A stretch of DNA of 34,552 bases from a bacterium (GTDB lineage Bacteria > UBP15 > UBA6099 > JAJRTR01), in contig JAJRTR010000152.1 of assembly GCA_024278215.1 (NCBI GenBank), positions 1-34,552 on the forward strand, read 5' to 3'. The notes below the pieces were generated by a model, which was not told the origin of the DNA, did no database searches, and worked only from the letters and a program-made list of their open reading frames with translations. The first letter of the stretch is position 1; each line of letters opens with the position of its first letter. Made by a program: the position numbers and the translations under genes. Shown piece after piece: positions 8,817-18,488 of this stretch.

Positions 8817-9713
8817 CTATGGCCGCAACTTTTTTTCTATTATTGTGTTTATGCTTTTCCTGTATCCCGGAAACCTTTCGAGGTAATCTTTCAAGGGCAT
8901 CTCCCTGATAAGGTCGGAATACATTATACCGCCTTCCGTGGAATTGTATACGCTTAATTTACCACATTTTATGTCTTTGTCAACCTTAAAGAAATCAAGG
9001 AGCCATTCGTAGCCCGCGAGATAGCCCGGCGCGGAGTACACTTTGTTGCCCCAGTGGTCTGTTCCTTCGTACCATCGCGCGCTGGTGTCGGAGGGCTTGT
9101 CCTGGCACAGATCGTTGCCCGTGAAGGTGATGGGGTTGCAGCCTGCTATCTTTGCGCATATAAAGGCGACGTTGCCGACGTTGACCGCGCCGGGTATGGC
9201 TGTGATCCTGTTTCCGGCCTGCTCCGTCATGTTCTGCGCGGCCTCCACGTAGCCTGTGTCGTAGTCGGTGATGTTGTAGAGCACAACATTCTTCCAGGGC
9301 AGGTCGAATACGCTGTGGTCGATATAGGCGGCGGCGATGAGTGTTGTGCGGCGCGTGTCCATCCCGCTGAAGAATGTGGCGACGCGCGGTGACGCGTCGC
9401 CGACTATCGTGAAGTGCGGTACGGTACCCTTTTCGTGGAGCTGTCCGAACGCTCTGTCTGTGCAGAAAAGTGGGTGGCTTTTTCCGGCTTCCGCGAGCAG
9501 ATCGATATTTTTGCTAAGGCTGGGTCCCGCGCCCACGACTATGCCAGGCATGTCCCAGAAAGCGTCCTGTATTGCTTTGACGTCGTAGGCTTTTGCGATT
9601 ATGTCGAAATTGTTCCTGATGTTGGCCAGCCATAAGCCGCGCTGTTTGCGCCCGTCCTGGTGGACGAATGTTTTTCTTATCGCGCTGTCACGCCGCTGTT
9701 GCTTTTCAGTCAT
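8817..9713 (-). CDS. DUF115 / MptE-like (Maf-related) protein
   Basis: The 298-residue protein carries the DUF115 (MptE-like) fold. GIVVGAGPSLSKN lies at residues 57-69, CTDRAFGQL at 84-92, VGDASP at 104-109, and FTGNDLCQD in the second half. In bacteria this domain forms the core of Maf (motility accessory factor) proteins, which transfer nonulosonic acids to flagellin. In archaea a shorter form (MptE) is a pterin pyrophosphokinase. At about 300 residues this is a minimal domain, half the size of typical Maf proteins. Its place as first gene of the second flagellar unit, just after the flgE terminator, suggests flagellin or hook glycosylation, but that is inference. No ribosome site is visible before ATG 9713. 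Confidence 0.8.
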   Translation of the reverse strand: MTEKQQRRDSAIRKTFVHQDGRKQRGLWLANIRNNFDIIAKAYDVKAIQDAFWDMPGIVVGAGPSLSKNIDLLAEAGKSHPLFCTDRAFGQLHEKGTVPHFTIVGDASPRVATFFSGMDTRRTTLIAAAYIDHSVFDLPWKNVVLYNITDYDTGYVEAAQNMTEQAGNRITAIPGAVNVGNVAFICAKIAGCNPITFTGNDLCQDKPSDTSARWYEGTDHWGNKVYSAPGYLAGYEWLLDFFKVDKDIKCGKLSVYNSTEGGIMYSDLIREMPLKDYLERFPGYRKSINTIIEKKLRP

Positions 9714-10007: not shown

Positions 10008-13000
10008 TTAACGTTTAAGGTTGATAACCTCCGTGAGCATCTCGTCAGAAGTGGTGATTATTCTTGAGTTGGCCTGGAATCCGCGTTCTGTGATGATCAT
10101 GTTCGTGAATTCCGAGATTATGTCTACGTTGGACTGTTCGAGAGAACCGCCGACGATGGAGCCCGCGCCGCCTACGAAGGCAGGTACTATGTTCGGAAGG
10201 CCCGTGTTGGCCGAAAGCGAGAACACGTTGCTGCCTTCCTTGTGCAGACCTTCTTCGTTGGGGAACATGGCGAGTCCGAGTTGCGCAATGGGTTTCACTA
10301 CGTTGTTCGAGTAGCGGCCCTCGATGATGCCGTTCTGGTCGACTGCGAATGTCTCGAGTATGCCCATTTCCCAACCGTTCTGCTCGTAGGCGCGGGTTGT
10401 GAAGTCGGATGCATACTGCGTGACGCCGTCGATGGGTACTCCGTGTCCGTCGACATCAAGGTCGATGGAAACATTTTCGGTGGCTTCCGTGCTGTTGCCG
10501 TTGGCTCCGATGGGTGACGGGTCGAACATGATGGGTCCGATGTTGCCCGCGAGTTTGCTGGTGACGATGAGTCCGTTTTCGTCGAACTCGATCTGGCCGT
10601 TGAGCTTGGCGCTGGAGACATCGGAGTCTACGATATCCATGCTGTCGAATGAGAATACGTCCGAGAAAGGAAGTTCGGCTCTCCAGTACCAGCGGTTCTG
10701 GTAGCGGATTTGTTCTGTGAGATCATAGTTGGAGCCGACGTGTGTGAAGACGAACTGGAGAGTGTGAGTGTCGCCGAGTGAGTCATAGACGTCGATCGAG
10801 GTTCTGTATACATCACCCGCCTGGAACCTGGTCGAGGTTTTTGCGGTAGGCTCGGTTGAAGTCGCCTGGTCGTTGATGGTTCCTGGAGTAGAAGCGCTCC
10901 TGTCCGCATTAATGGAAGAGAACATGGTGTTGAAAGCGGTGCGCGCTTTGCCTGCGCCGCCGGCGCTGACTTCCGCGTATTCCTGCGCGAAGTCCGCCCA
11001 TCGGGAGTTCATGATGGTAGCGGGGGGTTCGAGGAGGCGGTCTTCAGTAGTGTAATCGGCGGTGAGGCGGACTGTGCCTGTGAAGCCGGCGTTGCCGGGG
11101 TTGGCGGCACCTGTGCTTGCGCCGAATACAGCATCGGCGGAAGTGCTGTCCCACTTGAGTGAGATCTGGCCTGTTGTGGCGTCGATCGTGTAGTCCACTC
11201 CCTCAACAAGCAGGTTGTTGTCCGCGGTGTCTGTGCGATACGAAAATACCATTGCAGCGTTTGCCGAAGGACTGTTACCGCCTACTGTGTTGAAGTAAAC
11301 TCTCGGAACGCCGAGGTTGCCACTTGCGTCGTTACCGAGTGAAATCAGGTATTCGTTGGCCGCGCCCGTGAAGACTTCTACTTCTCTCCACACTGTGCCG
11401 TCGACGGAGAGTTCGCCCGTATCTTCGATCATTTTCAGATCGCCGCCGTCTGTGTAGCCTTTCCAGTCTGTGAGATCAACATACTGGTAACCATCGGCGT
11501 TGAGTCCGCCGAGTCCGGCCGACCATGTCTGGTCGAGCCGCGAGCGGATGACCTGTGCGTAGAGTTGCGCGGAGCCATTGACGTTGCCGTAATCGAGGTT
11601 GGCCGACGTGGTCTGGTAGTCGAAGTTGGCGATGTGTTCGCGGGTCATCGCGCCGCCGAGACCGCCGTTGATGAGTCCGAGGCGTGTGCCTGTAAGTGTC
11701 GGGTATGTGGACTCGCGGAGCAGGTATCCCTGCCTGATGCCGGAACCGGATACCGCGTTGATTTCGACGTGGATGTCGTTGTAGTCGCGTGATCCTGTTA
11801 CATCATTATTATAGATGTAAAACTTTGCTTCGTCCGTGTTGTACTTGACTGTGGCGTCCATTGTGCCGTTGACGTCGATGGCGTCGAGCGCGTTCTGAAT
11901 GACGGTTTCAAGGTCTCCGATGTCGGTGTCGTTGGATACCTGGTAGTAAAGGTACTTGTCGCCTTCATAGACCGAAGTGCTTTCCGCGCTTAACTGTGTG
12001 AAGTATGTCACGCTTGCTGTCGCGAGCGGGTCCGCGTCTCCGACATTTCCGCTGACATAGATCATGCCCGTGTCCGGGTCTATCGTGAAGAAACCCGCGC
12101 CTCTTGCGGCAAGGTCGTCAGGACTGTCGAATACGCGGGTGAGCGCAGCTAGATTACCACCGAAGGTGAGGTCATAGGCACCACCGTTCTGCGGGTCCAT
12201 GAGGGGCAGGTTCGATTCGGAGATGAGGCTTGTATATCGCCACAGTGTTCCTGTTTTCGCTGCGTCACTGGCATAAACATCCGTTCCTCCGCCTGTGATA
12301 TTCAGTGTGGAAGATGTAGCTGACGTGAGATCAGGCTGTTGGATGTACTGTGTATCGACGTGAATTTCGAGCCAGTCACCTTCGCGGATGCCGAGGTGCT
12401 CGGGGTTGACCTGGTCGTTGTCGTAGAGGTCTACGAGCAGGTCGTTCTTTGTGGCGAACCCTTCGCGGGGGTCAACGCCGTCGGCAATCAGCGAGCGTGA
12501 GCCTTCGTCGAGGTTGCACTTGAGGCCAACCTTGTTTGTCGCTGCCGCTTCGAGTTTTTCGCCGACCTGGAAATCGATGTTGCCGACGGGCCTGGTAGTG
12601 TCGACAGTGAAATCGTGGTCATCTGTAACCTTAATGCGGCTCCAGCCCTGCACGTAGCGGCCGTTGGCGTTGACGAGGCTGCCTTCTTTGTCGAGCGCGA
12701 AAGCGCCGTCACGTGTATAGACAGTGTCGCCGGAGCCGTCTTTGAGCACGAACCAGCCGTTGCCGTCGACGGCTACGTCTGTGAGGCGGCCTGTGGTTTC
12801 GATCTGCCCCTGGTTCATGATGTTTGTCACCGATACGGTGGAAACACCGAGCCCTACCTGTAGTGGGTTTGTGCCGCCGCGACCGCCGCGTGGCGCCGAA
12901 GCGGATTGATATGTGCGGCTCAGCAGGTCCGCGAATGTTGCGCGTCCCTGTTTAAAGCCGTAAGTATTGACATTGGCAATGTTGTTGCCGATTACATCCA

Positions 13001-13055
13001 TGCGCGTCTGGTGATTTTTCAATCCCAGTACGCCGGTGTATAACGACGAATTCAT
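10008..13055 (-). CDS. flgE: Flagellar hook protein FlgE, very large (1015 aa)
   Basis: FlgE polymerises into the hook that joins rod and filament. The N-terminal D0/D1 region (SSLYTGVLGLKNHQTRMDVIG, NNIANVNTYGFK) and the C-terminal helix (ITERGFQANSRIITTSDEML, INLKR) are canonical. Typical FlgE proteins have 350-500 residues. Here about 550 extra residues lie between NLDEG (181-185) and the returning core TSIDVYDSLGDTHTLQF (752-768). The insert is Gly/Thr/Asp-rich, includes two similar modules with TIDxxTGxI near residues 324-332 and 623-631, and is probably exposed on the hook surface. The only cysteine is C180, followed by N181, with K167 13 residues before it. That matches the lysinoalanine cross-link site of spirochaete FlgE (K165/C178/N179 in Treponema denticola). 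GGGAGG stands eight bases before ATG 13055. A terminator follows. Confidence 0.97.
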   Translation of the reverse strand: MNSSLYTGVLGLKNHQTRMDVIGNNIANVNTYGFKQGRATFADLLSRTYQSASAPRGGRGGTNPLQVGLGVSTVSVTNIMNQGQIETTGRLTDVAVDGNGWFVLKDGSGDTVYTRDGAFALDKEGSLVNANGRYVQGWSRIKVTDDHDFTVDTTRPVGNIDFQVGEKLEAAATNKVGLKCNLDEGSRSLIADGVDPREGFATKNDLLVDLYDNDQVNPEHLGIREGDWLEIHVDTQYIQQPDLTSATSSTLNITGGGTDVYASDAAKTGTLWRYTSLISESNLPLMDPQNGGAYDLTFGGNLAALTRVFDSPDDLAARGAGFFTIDPDTGMIYVSGNVGDADPLATASVTYFTQLSAESTSVYEGDKYLYYQVSNDTDIGDLETVIQNALDAIDVNGTMDATVKYNTDEAKFYIYNNDVTGSRDYNDIHVEINAVSGSGIRQGYLLRESTYPTLTGTRLGLINGGLGGAMTREHIANFDYQTTSANLDYGNVNGSAQLYAQVIRSRLDQTWSAGLGGLNADGYQYVDLTDWKGYTDGGDLKMIEDTGELSVDGTVWREVEVFTGAANEYLISLGNDASGNLGVPRVYFNTVGGNSPSANAAMVFSYRTDTADNNLLVEGVDYTIDATTGQISLKWDSTSADAVFGASTGAANPGNAGFTGTVRLTADYTTEDRLLEPPATIMNSRWADFAQEYAEVSAGGAGKARTAFNTMFSSINADRSASTPGTINDQATSTEPTAKTSTRFQAGDVYRTSIDVYDSLGDTHTLQFVFTHVGSNYDLTEQIRYQNRWYWRAELPFSDVFSFDSMDIVDSDVSSAKLNGQIEFDENGLIVTSKLAGNIGPIMFDPSPIGANGNSTEATENVSIDLDVDGHGVPIDGVTQYASDFTTRAYEQNGWEMGILETFAVDQNGIIEGRYSNNVVKPIAQLGLAMFPNEEGLHKEGSNVFSLSANTGLPNIVPAFVGGAGSIVGGSLEQSNVDIISEFTNMIITERGFQANSRIITTSDEMLTEVINLKR

Positions 13056-13807: not shown

Positions 13808-14416
13808 TTAAGACGGCAATGATACAGCCAGGATGTCGGAGAGGCCGAGTTCTACATCATCATCACCAACTATAAGTTTCGGGAAGCCTGAAGACAGGTC
13901 GACTGTCTTGACGAGTCCGGTAGCCTTGTTGCCGTCGCCGTCCAGGTATGTGACATCTTTACCTATCAGGTATGCGGAGTCGCTGAGAATGGATGCGGTA
14001 CTCAACTGGCCGAGGCCGATAATGTCATCGAGACTGACGGAATGGTCGCCGACCTGAAGGGCCGGCACGCCGTCTTCAACTGTGACGGATTCCACCATGC
14101 CTGTGTACATCTCTCCTTCTGAATCCTGGAACGCGATTGTCTGTCCTACCAGACCGGAGGCCTGTGACAACTGTTGCGCCTGGGCCATAGTCGCGAAACT
14201 TTCGTTGAGGTTTATCATCTCCTCGAGCGAGTTAAACTGCGCGAGTTGTGCGATAAAATCCTCGTTTTTGAGCGGGTCCAGAGGGTCCTGGTTCTTCAGT
14301 TGTTCCACGAGCAGCCTCAGAAATGCGTCTTTGTCGAGATTCGACGAAGATTTCTCTGCCTCCTTTGACTGCAGGGCTTCCAGCGAAAAATCGTTGATAA
14401 TTGAATTTATTCCCAT
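13808..14416 (-). CDS. flgD: Hook-cap protein FlgD
   Basis: FlgD is the scaffold that caps the growing hook and lets FlgE subunits insert. Residues 25-85 carry the conserved N-terminal block: LDKDAFLRLLVEQLKNQDPLD, then NEDFIAQLAQFNSLEEM. The rest does not look like the usual interleaved Tudor/FnIII arrangement. Two similar segments of about 48 residues follow each other: 89-135 (LVGQTIAFQDSEGEMYTGMV, ending VSLDDIIGL) and 150-198 (LIGKDVTYLDGDGNKATGLV, ending LGLSDILAV). This suggests a tandem duplication of one Tudor-like module. GGAG lies seven bases before ATG 14416. Length is near normal at 202 aa. Confidence 0.94.
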   Translation of the reverse strand: MGINSIINDFSLEALQSKEAEKSSSNLDKDAFLRLLVEQLKNQDPLDPLKNEDFIAQLAQFNSLEEMINLNESFATMAQAQQLSQASGLVGQTIAFQDSEGEMYTGMVESVTVEDGVPALQVGDHSVSLDDIIGLGQLSTASILSDSAYLIGKDVTYLDGDGNKATGLVKTVDLSSGFPKLIVGDDDVELGLSDILAVSLPS

Positions 14417-14446: not shown

Positions 14447-16558
14447 TCAGGCGAGATAGCTTACACGCGCTTGCGCGTTCAATTCTCCTCCGCTCCTGCC
14501 GTAGGTAAAGCCTTCCGCGCCGATGTAGGCGGGTTCCGCTCCACCGGGTACCGGTTCCATTCCGTTCTCGCCGCCGTAGGAATCCATTCCTATAGCATAT
14601 ACCGGATTGTAGCCGTCGCCCGCAGTATCTTCCGCTCCGTTGTGCGCTTCGTGTCCGTTGCCGCCGGTGTCTACCGTGACCTCGAACTGGCTGACTTTCA
14701 CGCCCTGATCCTGCAGGGACTGTTTTAGCTGGCCCAGGTTACTCTCGATAATCGCTTTCACCTCATGGCTGCTTGCGGTTATCTTGGCGAGCACCGTGTC
14801 CTGTTCCACACGGATTTTCAGGTGCACGTCGCCCAGGTTGCCGGGCTTCAGGAACACTCTGAGTTCGCCGTTCGCACTGCTGAGAGAAGAAAAGGAGATT
14901 CGCTGAACGATCTGGTTCATGACTGATTCATGAACATTTTGCCCTGGGGTCGAGTAACGGGGCTGGGCCGATTGGGATTGGAACAGCCGGCTTACAGTAC
15001 TTTGCGGTTGTCCGTTCCTTCCGAGGAATGCTATTCGCCCGGTACCCTGCTGTGCGTCACCTTTCCCATTGAGGCTGTCGCCGACAGGAGATTCGCTGAA
15101 CACTTTCGCGTTCTTTGTACTCGTCTCCTGCTTTGCCTGATCGGAGAAGTTCTGCAACCAGTCCTGCACGAATGTTGTCGCACTCACTTTTTTGATCAGC
15201 AGACTGTCGAGGCCGTTGTTGTCGCCGCCGCCGCGTCCGTTGAGCAGTGTCTGGAGCCTGTCGAAAAGGTCGCGCCTTTCCGAGCCGCCCTTTACTATCT
15301 GCTTCACCAGTGCTTCGGCTTCCAAGGATTTCATATACTCGTCGGATTGCAGAAACTGCGGGTCCGAGGGTAGCGCCTGGATTCTCGCTTTGGCAACATC
15401 TTCCGCGCCCTGTTCGGGCTTCATCGCCACCGCGAGCCTCAACTTGCCGCTCTGCCGGTCTTTCTGTGAGGCTATCAGACGTGCGAGTTCCTCTTTGCTT
15501 AGTCCCAGAGAATCGAGCAGTTTGAGAAGTTTATCGTCATCACCGTTTTCGATACTCGCCGACAGCGCTTCTATCGAATCGCTGCCGCTTGCGGTCGCGA
15601 GTTGTTCGAGCGGTACGGTCATGACCATATCGGTCTTCTCGAGTTGCATCCGGTCGATATTCACCAGTTGTGCCGACTTCAGGTCTTCCGCCGTGATCTC
15701 CAGGTTCAGCGCAGCCGATTCTCCGTCACCGGATGCCGGTTCGAGAGAAAATCTGATTCCTTCGCCGGTATTATCGCCGTCGCCGCCCTTTACGAGTTCT
15801 GTAAGCGGGATGAGCAGCCCCTGGTCGTCGGTGAGCTTCAGGAGAACTTTCACATCTTTAAGTGCGTCAGAGTCGAGAGCGTTCTGCCCGTTCATCAACA
15901 TACTCAGCATTTTGTACAGTTTGCTGTCCGGGTCCAACTCGATGGTGAGTTGTGCCGGTTGCTCTTCGCCGAATTTTCCGGCGTCTTCCATGCCTGACAG
16001 CATCAGAGCGAGCATCTGCATGATGATTCCGAGCATTTTCTCGTCTGCCGCATCTTCGCCCTTCGCCGCTTCTGCCTCAAGCTTGTCGATCAGCGCTTCG
16101 AGCTTTCTGTTCGCCTCGTCCTGCTTTTGAGCAAACTGCGCTGCCGCTGCGACTTCGCCGTCATTGGTCTTATCATCGACAGCTTCTTTCCTGTCGCTCG
16201 CGCCGCTTTCGGAAGTCTTATGCGATTTGCGGGTCTCATCGGTTCCTTTGCTCTCGCTTGTTTCGGCTCGTTTCCGGTCCGCATCCTTTTCGGATGTGCC
16301 GACCTTCTGCGATTCGGCTTTGTCGCGAGTCCGCTGCGCTCCATCTTTCGGCGCTACGCCCTCGGACTGTTTCGCCCGGTCACTTTGCGCCTTAACCGCT
16401 GAACAATCGTTGCGGCTCGTGCGCTTCATCGCCGAGCTGAAAGCGTCCTTGAAGAGCGAAGAAGTGTTCCCCTGGGGTTCGGCCTTAAGAGAAAACAGGT
16501 CTGTTGTCGCCGCCGTTGTCTTCGACAGCAACCCCATGAGCAAGTCCGTCGCTTGCAT
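14447..16558 (-). CDS. fliK: Flagellar hook-length control protein FliK
   Basis: FliK measures the hook and triggers the FlhB specificity switch. The 703-residue product has the usual layout. The long N-terminal part is low in conservation and rich in Lys, Ser, Glu and Ala (about residues 45-170). The Flg_hook domain lies near residues 555-635, with GELRVFLKPGNLGDVHLKI, then DTVLAKITASSHEVK and LGQLKQSLQDQGVKVSQFEV. A Gly-rich tail follows. It is longer than Salmonella FliK (about 405 aa), which is common in this family. The start at ATG 16558 has a strong AAGGAGGTGAT site, and a second GGAGGTGAT lies about 30 bases further upstream. Confidence 0.93.
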   Translation of the reverse strand: MQATDLLMGLLSKTTAATTDLFSLKAEPQGNTSSLFKDAFSSAMKRTSRNDCSAVKAQSDRAKQSEGVAPKDGAQRTRDKAESQKVGTSEKDADRKRAETSESKGTDETRKSHKTSESGASDRKEAVDDKTNDGEVAAAAQFAQKQDEANRKLEALIDKLEAEAAKGEDAADEKMLGIIMQMLALMLSGMEDAGKFGEEQPAQLTIELDPDSKLYKMLSMLMNGQNALDSDALKDVKVLLKLTDDQGLLIPLTELVKGGDGDNTGEGIRFSLEPASGDGESAALNLEITAEDLKSAQLVNIDRMQLEKTDMVMTVPLEQLATASGSDSIEALSASIENGDDDKLLKLLDSLGLSKEELARLIASQKDRQSGKLRLAVAMKPEQGAEDVAKARIQALPSDPQFLQSDEYMKSLEAEALVKQIVKGGSERRDLFDRLQTLLNGRGGGDNNGLDSLLIKKVSATTFVQDWLQNFSDQAKQETSTKNAKVFSESPVGDSLNGKGDAQQGTGRIAFLGRNGQPQSTVSRLFQSQSAQPRYSTPGQNVHESVMNQIVQRISFSSLSSANGELRVFLKPGNLGDVHLKIRVEQDTVLAKITASSHEVKAIIESNLGQLKQSLQDQGVKVSQFEVTVDTGGNGHEAHNGAEDTAGDGYNPVYAIGMDSYGGENGMEPVPGGAEPAYIGAEGFTYGRSGGELNAQARVSYLA

Positions 16559-17846: not shown

Positions 17847-18488
17847 TTATCCTTCGCCGGATAATTTATTCATTATCGTCTCGATATACTTCTTTGTTTC
17901 CGCGTAAGGCGGAATGCCTTTGTAGGTTTCCACCGCCTTGGGGCCCGCATTATATGCCGACAGCGCGAGTGACGGATCGCCGCCGAAACGTTCCAGCATG
18001 GACTTCAGGTAGCGCGCGCCTCCGTCTATATTCTCCGCAGGGTCGAAAGGATTTTTTACATTCAGCCCCTTCGCCGTACCGGGCATAAGCTGCATCAGGC
18101 CCATAGCGCCCTTGTGGGATACAGCCGCCGGGTTGTAATTCGATTCCGCGTCGACCACCGCATCCAGTAGTTTCCTGTCGATATGATATTTCGCCGATGC
18201 CTGCTCGATGAGTGTGTTGATCTGCTTCTTGTCGATTTTATCTGTTTTGAATGTGCCCGGCGCGAAAAGCCGTTCGGGAAGTTCGTTTTTTGCCTCGACA
18301 CCCTTCCCTTCGGTTTTGTTCGCGTCCTGCATGTTCTTTTCGAGCTGCGCCTTGAACTCTGGGCTTAATTCCGCCGGCTGTGGAATCTTCGGACCGAATT
18401 TTTTCTGGATATACTCGATCCGTTCCATCATCCTGGCCATGCCCCATTCGGACGGGCTGGTCTTCATTTGAAATATTCCGGACTGCAT
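17847..18488 (-). CDS. Lytic transglycosylase (SLT domain), flagellum-associated
   Basis: The 213-residue protein has a C-terminal SLT (soluble lytic transglycosylase, Slt70-type) domain. The catalytic Glu is in [14 protein letters not shown] (about residue 116), followed by [13 protein letters not shown] and [10 protein letters not shown], and ending [10 protein letters not shown]. The enzyme cleaves peptidoglycan, and dedicated copies open the wall for the growing rod. It lies between fliJ and the MotE-like gene, so a rod-assembly role is likely. FlgJ is not seen in the window. No obvious signal peptide is present. Export through the flagellar apparatus, as for FlgJ, would fit that, but it is inference. 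GAGGGA precedes ATG 18488. Confidence 0.9.

Follow-up and report, generated by a model that had tools for sequence, protein, structure and literature searches.

Hook proteins (FlgE) of spirochaetes are covalently joined by lysinoalanine (Lal). In Treponema denticola, the thiol of Cys178 is eliminated as H2S from the assembled subunit, and Lys165 of a neighboring subunit adds to the resulting dehydroalanine at the D1-D2' interface (PMC9254593, PMC10691653). A 2023 survey by Lynch et al. retrieved FlgE from all bacteria but analyzed only those of spirochaetes; it considered Lal a spirochaete adaptation tied to unusual cell structure and motility, and proposed that spirochaete-specific antimicrobials be directed against the bond (PMC10691653). 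Our own literature search, in which subscription journals were thinly covered, found no Lal hooks outside spirochaetes. The DNA analyzed here (the window, 34,552 bp) comes from a genome assigned to the candidate phylum UBP15, and encodes a FlgE that raises the question of whether the same bond could form in the hooks of a non-spirochaete.

A hook protein with lysine and cysteine at the Lal positions of T. denticola

The gene in question was identified as flgE by several independent matches. Flg_bb_rod, FlgE/F/G D1, FlgE_D2, and Flg_bbr_C were all found above the Pfam cut-off, which gives the D0/D1/D2 core of a FlgE orthologue. In addition, the product of 10008-13055 is matched by the NCBIfam FlgE models, and its best PDB matches by both phmmer and Foldseek are FlgE structures. 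The gene and the codons considered below are as follows.

10008..13055, minus strand: flgE, hook protein of 1015 aa with a single Cys (ORF, Pfam, NCBIfam, and PDB matches)
12555..12557, minus strand: K167 codon (AAA), equivalent to T. denticola Lys165, in D1, predicted Lal nucleophile (phmmer against 6ndx; cross-phylum alignment)
12516..12518, minus strand: C180 codon (TGC), equivalent to Cys178, at the D1-D2 border, predicted dehydroalanine precursor (phmmer against 6ndx; cross-phylum alignment)
12513..12515, minus strand: N181 codon (AAC), equivalent to Asn179, near-universal in FlgE (166/169 FlgEs)
10398..10400, minus strand: T886 codon, equivalent to T. denticola Thr334 (6ndx alignment; C-terminal alignment)
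10395..10397, minus strand: T887 codon, equivalent to Thr335 (13/13 FlgEs with Lys plus Cys/Ser versus 7/53 others)
10392..10394, minus strand: R888 codon, equivalent to Lys336, a conservative change (6ndx and C-terminal alignments)

As the original prediction had stated, C180 is the only Cys among the 1015 residues, N181 follows it directly, and K167 lies 13 residues before it; the segment to which it had pointed, 12513-12557, runs exactly from N181 to K167. Its assignment of these residues to the Lal positions of T. denticola also held. Chain B of 6ndx, a T. denticola FlgE structure solved as a Lal-linked dimer, aligns ungapped with the window protein, pairing K167 with Lys165 and C180 with the mutated Cys178Ala (phmmer; Cys178Ala is chain position 88, and the resulting offset of 90 was counted by hand from the alignment). 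The two orthologues (PDB 6ndx and 6ndt for T. denticola) therefore share the aligned Lys and Cys, and their 13-residue spacing. Equivalents of Asn179 and Thr334 are likewise present in the window FlgE, and in most of the sampled spirochaete FlgEs the Lal Cys is the sole Cys, as it is here. The differences are one of length, 456-463 aa in spirochaetes versus 1015 aa in the window, and one at Lys336, which is Arg888 in the window FlgE. Thr334 and Lys336 are the two additional residues highlighted in the alignment of Lynch et al. (PMC10691653). Because the Lys336 position varies among spirochaetes as well, with Arg in rows L056 and L098, we did not count Lys336 as defining for a Lal FlgE. The Asn181/NLD context, which had been offered earlier as further support, proved to be a general feature of FlgE. 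Asn181 occurs in 166 of 169 FlgEs whether or not Cys180 is present, and being near-universal it carries no information on the bond.

The host genome is placed outside Spirochaetota

Placement of the genome by its ribosomal proteins had been suggested as a check on the original prediction. In a tree of 17 such proteins from 41 genomes, Spirochaetota formed one clade (support 99-100), and UBP15, a phylum represented by seven genomes of a single order, was placed elsewhere, next to G252/G116/G022 and G125. Over the first 210 residues, the named FlgEs nearest to that of the window (79-83%) belong to bacterium ADurb.Bin236, bacterium UBP15_UBA6099, and three MAGs, and UBP15_UBA6099 stands among the candidate phyla in the NCBI listing. 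The sheath protein FlaA was found in none of the seven UBP15 genomes, whereas every spirochaete searched has 3-4 copies. The ribosomal tree, the missing FlaA, and the host's membership in a small phylum of its own thus rule out that the organism is a spirochaete.

Six of the seven UBP15 genomes contain strong matches to FlgH (E 1e-47 to 1e-51) and FlgI (~1e-125), whereas FlgH matches in spirochaetes are weak or absent. The presence of canonical FlgH and FlgI suggests that external rather than periplasmic flagella are the likelier case in UBP15. In the FlgH of the window genome (G000 contig C51, ~1790-2305, locus L195), a lipobox Cys was not found, although the N-terminus is signal-like. The FlgH of E. 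coli is a lipoprotein; here the L-ring may be anchored differently and the outer ring may be non-classical, and for this reason the external position of UBP15 flagella is something that we infer.

The FlgE tree agrees with this placement. The UBP15 proteins (support 100) join those of G252/G116/G022 (83, SH-aLRT), apart from the clade that unites the Spirochaetota (95). Since these FlgE neighbors are also the ribosomal neighbors of UBP15, vertical descent fits better than recent transfer, and UBP15 appears to have retained the Lys-Cys pair along with its FlgE lineage. A recent acquisition of the gene from spirochaetes is unsupported by the FlgE tree.

Distribution of the Lys-Cys pair across phyla

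The K-x12-C-N arrangement is present in all seven UBP15 genomes; in one of them, G001, a contig opens with this Lys as its first complete codon. We then turned to a cross-phylum sample of 290 genomes, about two per phylum as read from the kinship table of the sample, which was reduced to 86 FlgE lineages with UBP15 counted as one. Lys167 together with Cys180 was found in UBP15, G142/G279, G264, G228, G125, G140, and G161, and Lys167 together with Ser180 in G023, G170, G252, G116, G022, G213, G090, and G199. No other Cys-type lineage falls within the phyla of G140 and G161, taken whole (8 and 39 genomes, respectively), and G142, G228, and G125 are set apart from each other by the ribosomal tree. 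On the basis of these separate phyla and the ribosomal tree, at least six phylum-level lineages besides UBP15, or at least seven in total, have the Cys form outside Spirochaetota.

One of the Cys-type genomes, G264, was identified as Thermanaerovibrio acidaminovorans (Synergistota), a species reported to move by lateral flagella (PMC3035242). Within Synergistota, Lys-Cys-Asn occurs in 31 of 33 aligned sequences (29/31 once the window and a second copy of the query are set aside); in the other two, Lys and Cys have been lost jointly. Some Synergistota genomes have more than one FlgE copy (L259 in G336, L260 in G355), and two adjacent copies in G336 are both Lys-Cys-Asn. The phylum of G161 contains a subgroup (L304, L306, L308, L309, L311, L312) with Gly at position 180, in which position 167 is Arg or Gln in five of the six sequences and Lys in one; the subgroup is a natural loss control within a Cys-type phylum.

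Based upon these sequences, Lys-Cys reinforcement of hooks is probably widespread outside spirochaetes. The original prediction had held that the chemistry would be more widespread if the organism were not a spirochaete, and it is this branch that applies, for a predicted bond, with support from the ribosomal tree and the wider sampling of FlgE.

K-x12-S-N pattern matches in selenomonads (L042, L091, L102) were rejected as misregistered, given that the residue before the conserved Asn is itself Asn and that the Lys is shifted by one position. Most Selenomonadales FlgEs (L037, L042, L076, L078, L079, L084, L086, L089, L091, L093, L094, L096, L097, L100, L102) do have a conserved Cys, at residue 95 in D1, which is far from the Lal site.

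Positions 167 and 180 are coupled

Among the 86 lineages, 535 residue/column associations with Cys/Ser180 were compared, and that of Lys167 was the strongest (16/20 versus 9/66, p = 6e-8); the next-strongest reached p = 1e-4, and the association with Lys167 was recovered at p = 2e-4 in each half of the sample. Counted over 169 FlgEs, Lys167 accompanies all 68 Cys180 residues, 17 of 22 Ser, 10 of 54 Gly, and none of the 25 others. Ser180 considered alone is also coupled to Lys167 (8/12, p = 3e-4), and so behaves in part like Cys180. The coupling extends to the C-terminal part of the protein, where Thr335 (T887) is present in 13/13 FlgEs with Lys plus Cys/Ser versus 7/53 others, and Thr334 (T886) in 11/13 versus 16/53. 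A second Cys is missing from 20 of 21 Cys-type FlgE rows.

Shared ancestry was taken into account with a Pagel test, for which the FlgE tree was built without columns 167 and 180, and 60 other column traits served as controls. The likelihood ratio was 51.4 for Cys/Ser with Lys and 45.1 for Cys with Lys, compared with a maximum of 18.4 and a median of 4.8 among the 60 controls. An independent-pairs test confined to supported branches was never contrary and was too small for significance. Given the conservation in 7/7 UBP15 genomes and the coupling across phyla, the match at K167 and C180 exceeds chance. The Cys/Ser state requires 12-14 parsimony changes on poorly resolved trees, which would fit either an ancestral state with many losses or several origins.

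A putative lysinoalanine bond and its alternatives

We consider it probable that C180 and K167 together form a self-catalyzed inter-subunit Lal cross-link that was inherited with the FlgE lineage. After assembly of the hook, C180 at the D1-D2 border would lose H2S to give dehydroalanine, to which the amine of K167 in D1 of the neighboring subunit would add, so that the hook subunits would become covalently joined and the hook presumably stiffer. The pair would have been retained in UBP15 and in several other phyla, where flagella are probably external, with no recent acquisition from spirochaetes. The same Lal reaction is the best explanation because the same residues occupy the same places, because positions 167 and 180 are coupled, and because Cys and Ser exchange with one another. 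Such an exchange has a precedent, since both residues interchange within Spirochaetota and both forms cross-link, as with the Ser that forms Lal in Leptospira (PMC10691653). The Leptospira FlgE (Ser179, with several lysines) offers a dehydroalanine precursor at the same position, with Lys166 as its partner; the precursor is Ser there versus Cys in the window, and the Ser form also occurs in the relatives G252, G116, and G022. We counted the retention of Thr334 as T886 and the tracking of the pair by T887 for the Lal reading, and Arg888 in place of Lys336, the FlgH without a lipobox, the SH-aLRT support of only 83, the low power of the independent-pairs test on supported branches, and the poor structure model outside D1 against it.

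Co-variation shows only that two positions depend on each other, and the same pattern might arise if a conserved hydrogen bond or packing between K167 and C180 or S180 at the D1-D2' interface stabilized the hook with no covalent linkage, the Lal bond having evolved from this contact in spirochaetes alone. Such a contact would tolerate Ser, and the Lys167 kept in 10 of 54 Gly180 rows implies some use for the lysine without Cys or Ser. We nevertheless regard it as unlikely, since Cys and Ser are the dehydroalanine precursors, which interchange and cross-link in Spirochaetota (PMC10691653), and since other Cys are nearly absent from Cys-type FlgEs, as might be expected if an unreactive Cys in an exported protein is costly. 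A different covalent linkage might form instead, either a Lys-Cys bond such as an N-O-S bridge, with which the single Cys of each subunit and the neighboring Lys are formally compatible, or a disulfide between the C180 residues of two subunits; however, neither would tolerate the replacement of Cys by Ser with the Lys retained, and a disulfide would leave the strict coupling to Lys167 unexplained, which makes these linkages very improbable.

Least probable, in our judgment, is that the match reflects chance or functionless shared ancestry, or that the flagellar genes were recently taken up from a spirochaete. The best-scoring named FlgE records after those of UBP15 are indeed mostly spirochaetal, but the coupling lies far above that seen for any of the 60 control columns in this tree, the UBP15 FlgE groups with the ribosomal neighbors of UBP15 and not with the FlgEs of Spirochaetota, whose clade has a support of 95, and the genomes have canonical FlgH and FlgI and no FlaA.

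The Lal bond of the window FlgE is thus a prediction from sequence, in a phylum with canonical FlgH/FlgI and without the FlaA of spirochaetes, and would represent known chemistry in an unexpected place. On balance, we favor the broader view that Lal-welded hooks are not a spirochaete invention, but an old and repeatedly lost trait of several phyla whose flagella are of the ordinary external type, cultured Synergistota such as T. acidaminovorans among them, and that the standing account, in which the bond adapts hooks to a periplasmic flagellum, is wrong or incomplete. If so, periplasmic location does not explain the Lal bond, the claim of a spirochaete-specific target is weakened, and the chemistry becomes open to study in culturable non-spirochaetes. 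The co-evolution also provides a sequence rule, Lys167 plus Cys/Ser180, that predicts SDS-resistant hooks.

Size of the hook protein and its gene neighborhood

Three further features of the window concern the size of the protein and its neighbors.

10938..12437, minus strand: FlgE residues 207-706, an insert of ~500 aa that separates D1 from the annotated D2 (Pfam and PDB sequence searches, see below)
13808..14416, minus strand: flgD, hook cap/hook assembly protein (NCBIfam)
14447..16558, minus strand: fliK, hook-length control protein, 703 aa (PF02120)

The original prediction had called the hook unusual in its size even if the organism were a spirochaete, and this did not stand: FlgEs of at least 1000 aa occur in several other phyla (1000-1050 aa in the cross-phylum sample), and judged by these lengths the size of FlgE alone is not remarkable. 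The UBP15 relatives have a similar total length (980-1010 aa). When residues 207-706 were searched against Pfam and PDB sequences, no Pfam match and no meaningful PDB match was found. The AlphaFold model of the 1015-aa protein has a mean pLDDT of 49 and is good only in D1, with block means of ~70-90 for residues 81-170 and ~891-970. A Foldseek search with this model returned Campylobacter jejuni FlgE first, and 6ndx and 6ndt further down. The C. jejuni protein (851 aa; PDB 5jxl, 5az4) also has large extra domains, of which D3 and D4 are credited with a stiffer hook (reviewed in PMC9254593). In contrast to the window FlgE, its aligned chain has Asn at the position of C180, which makes a Lal bond impossible, and the window insert has no sequence match. 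The 500-aa insert could alter the packing of subunits, and we counted this against the Lal reading.

The window is a minus-strand flagellar block with fliF, fliG, fliH, fliI, fliJ, a transglycosylase gene, fliK, flgD, a gene for a TIGR02530 protein, flgE, an MptE-like gene, fliL, fliM, fliN/fliY, fliO, and fliP. The MptE-like (PF01973) protein, encoded directly downstream of flgE (8817-9713, minus strand), has a weak match to the flagellin-modification protein PseD, and MptE-like/PseD-type proteins have been linked to flagellin glycosylation. The transglycosylase SLT gene (17847-18488, minus strand) lies between fliJ and an MgtE_N-type gene, and its product probably opens the cell wall during assembly of the rod.
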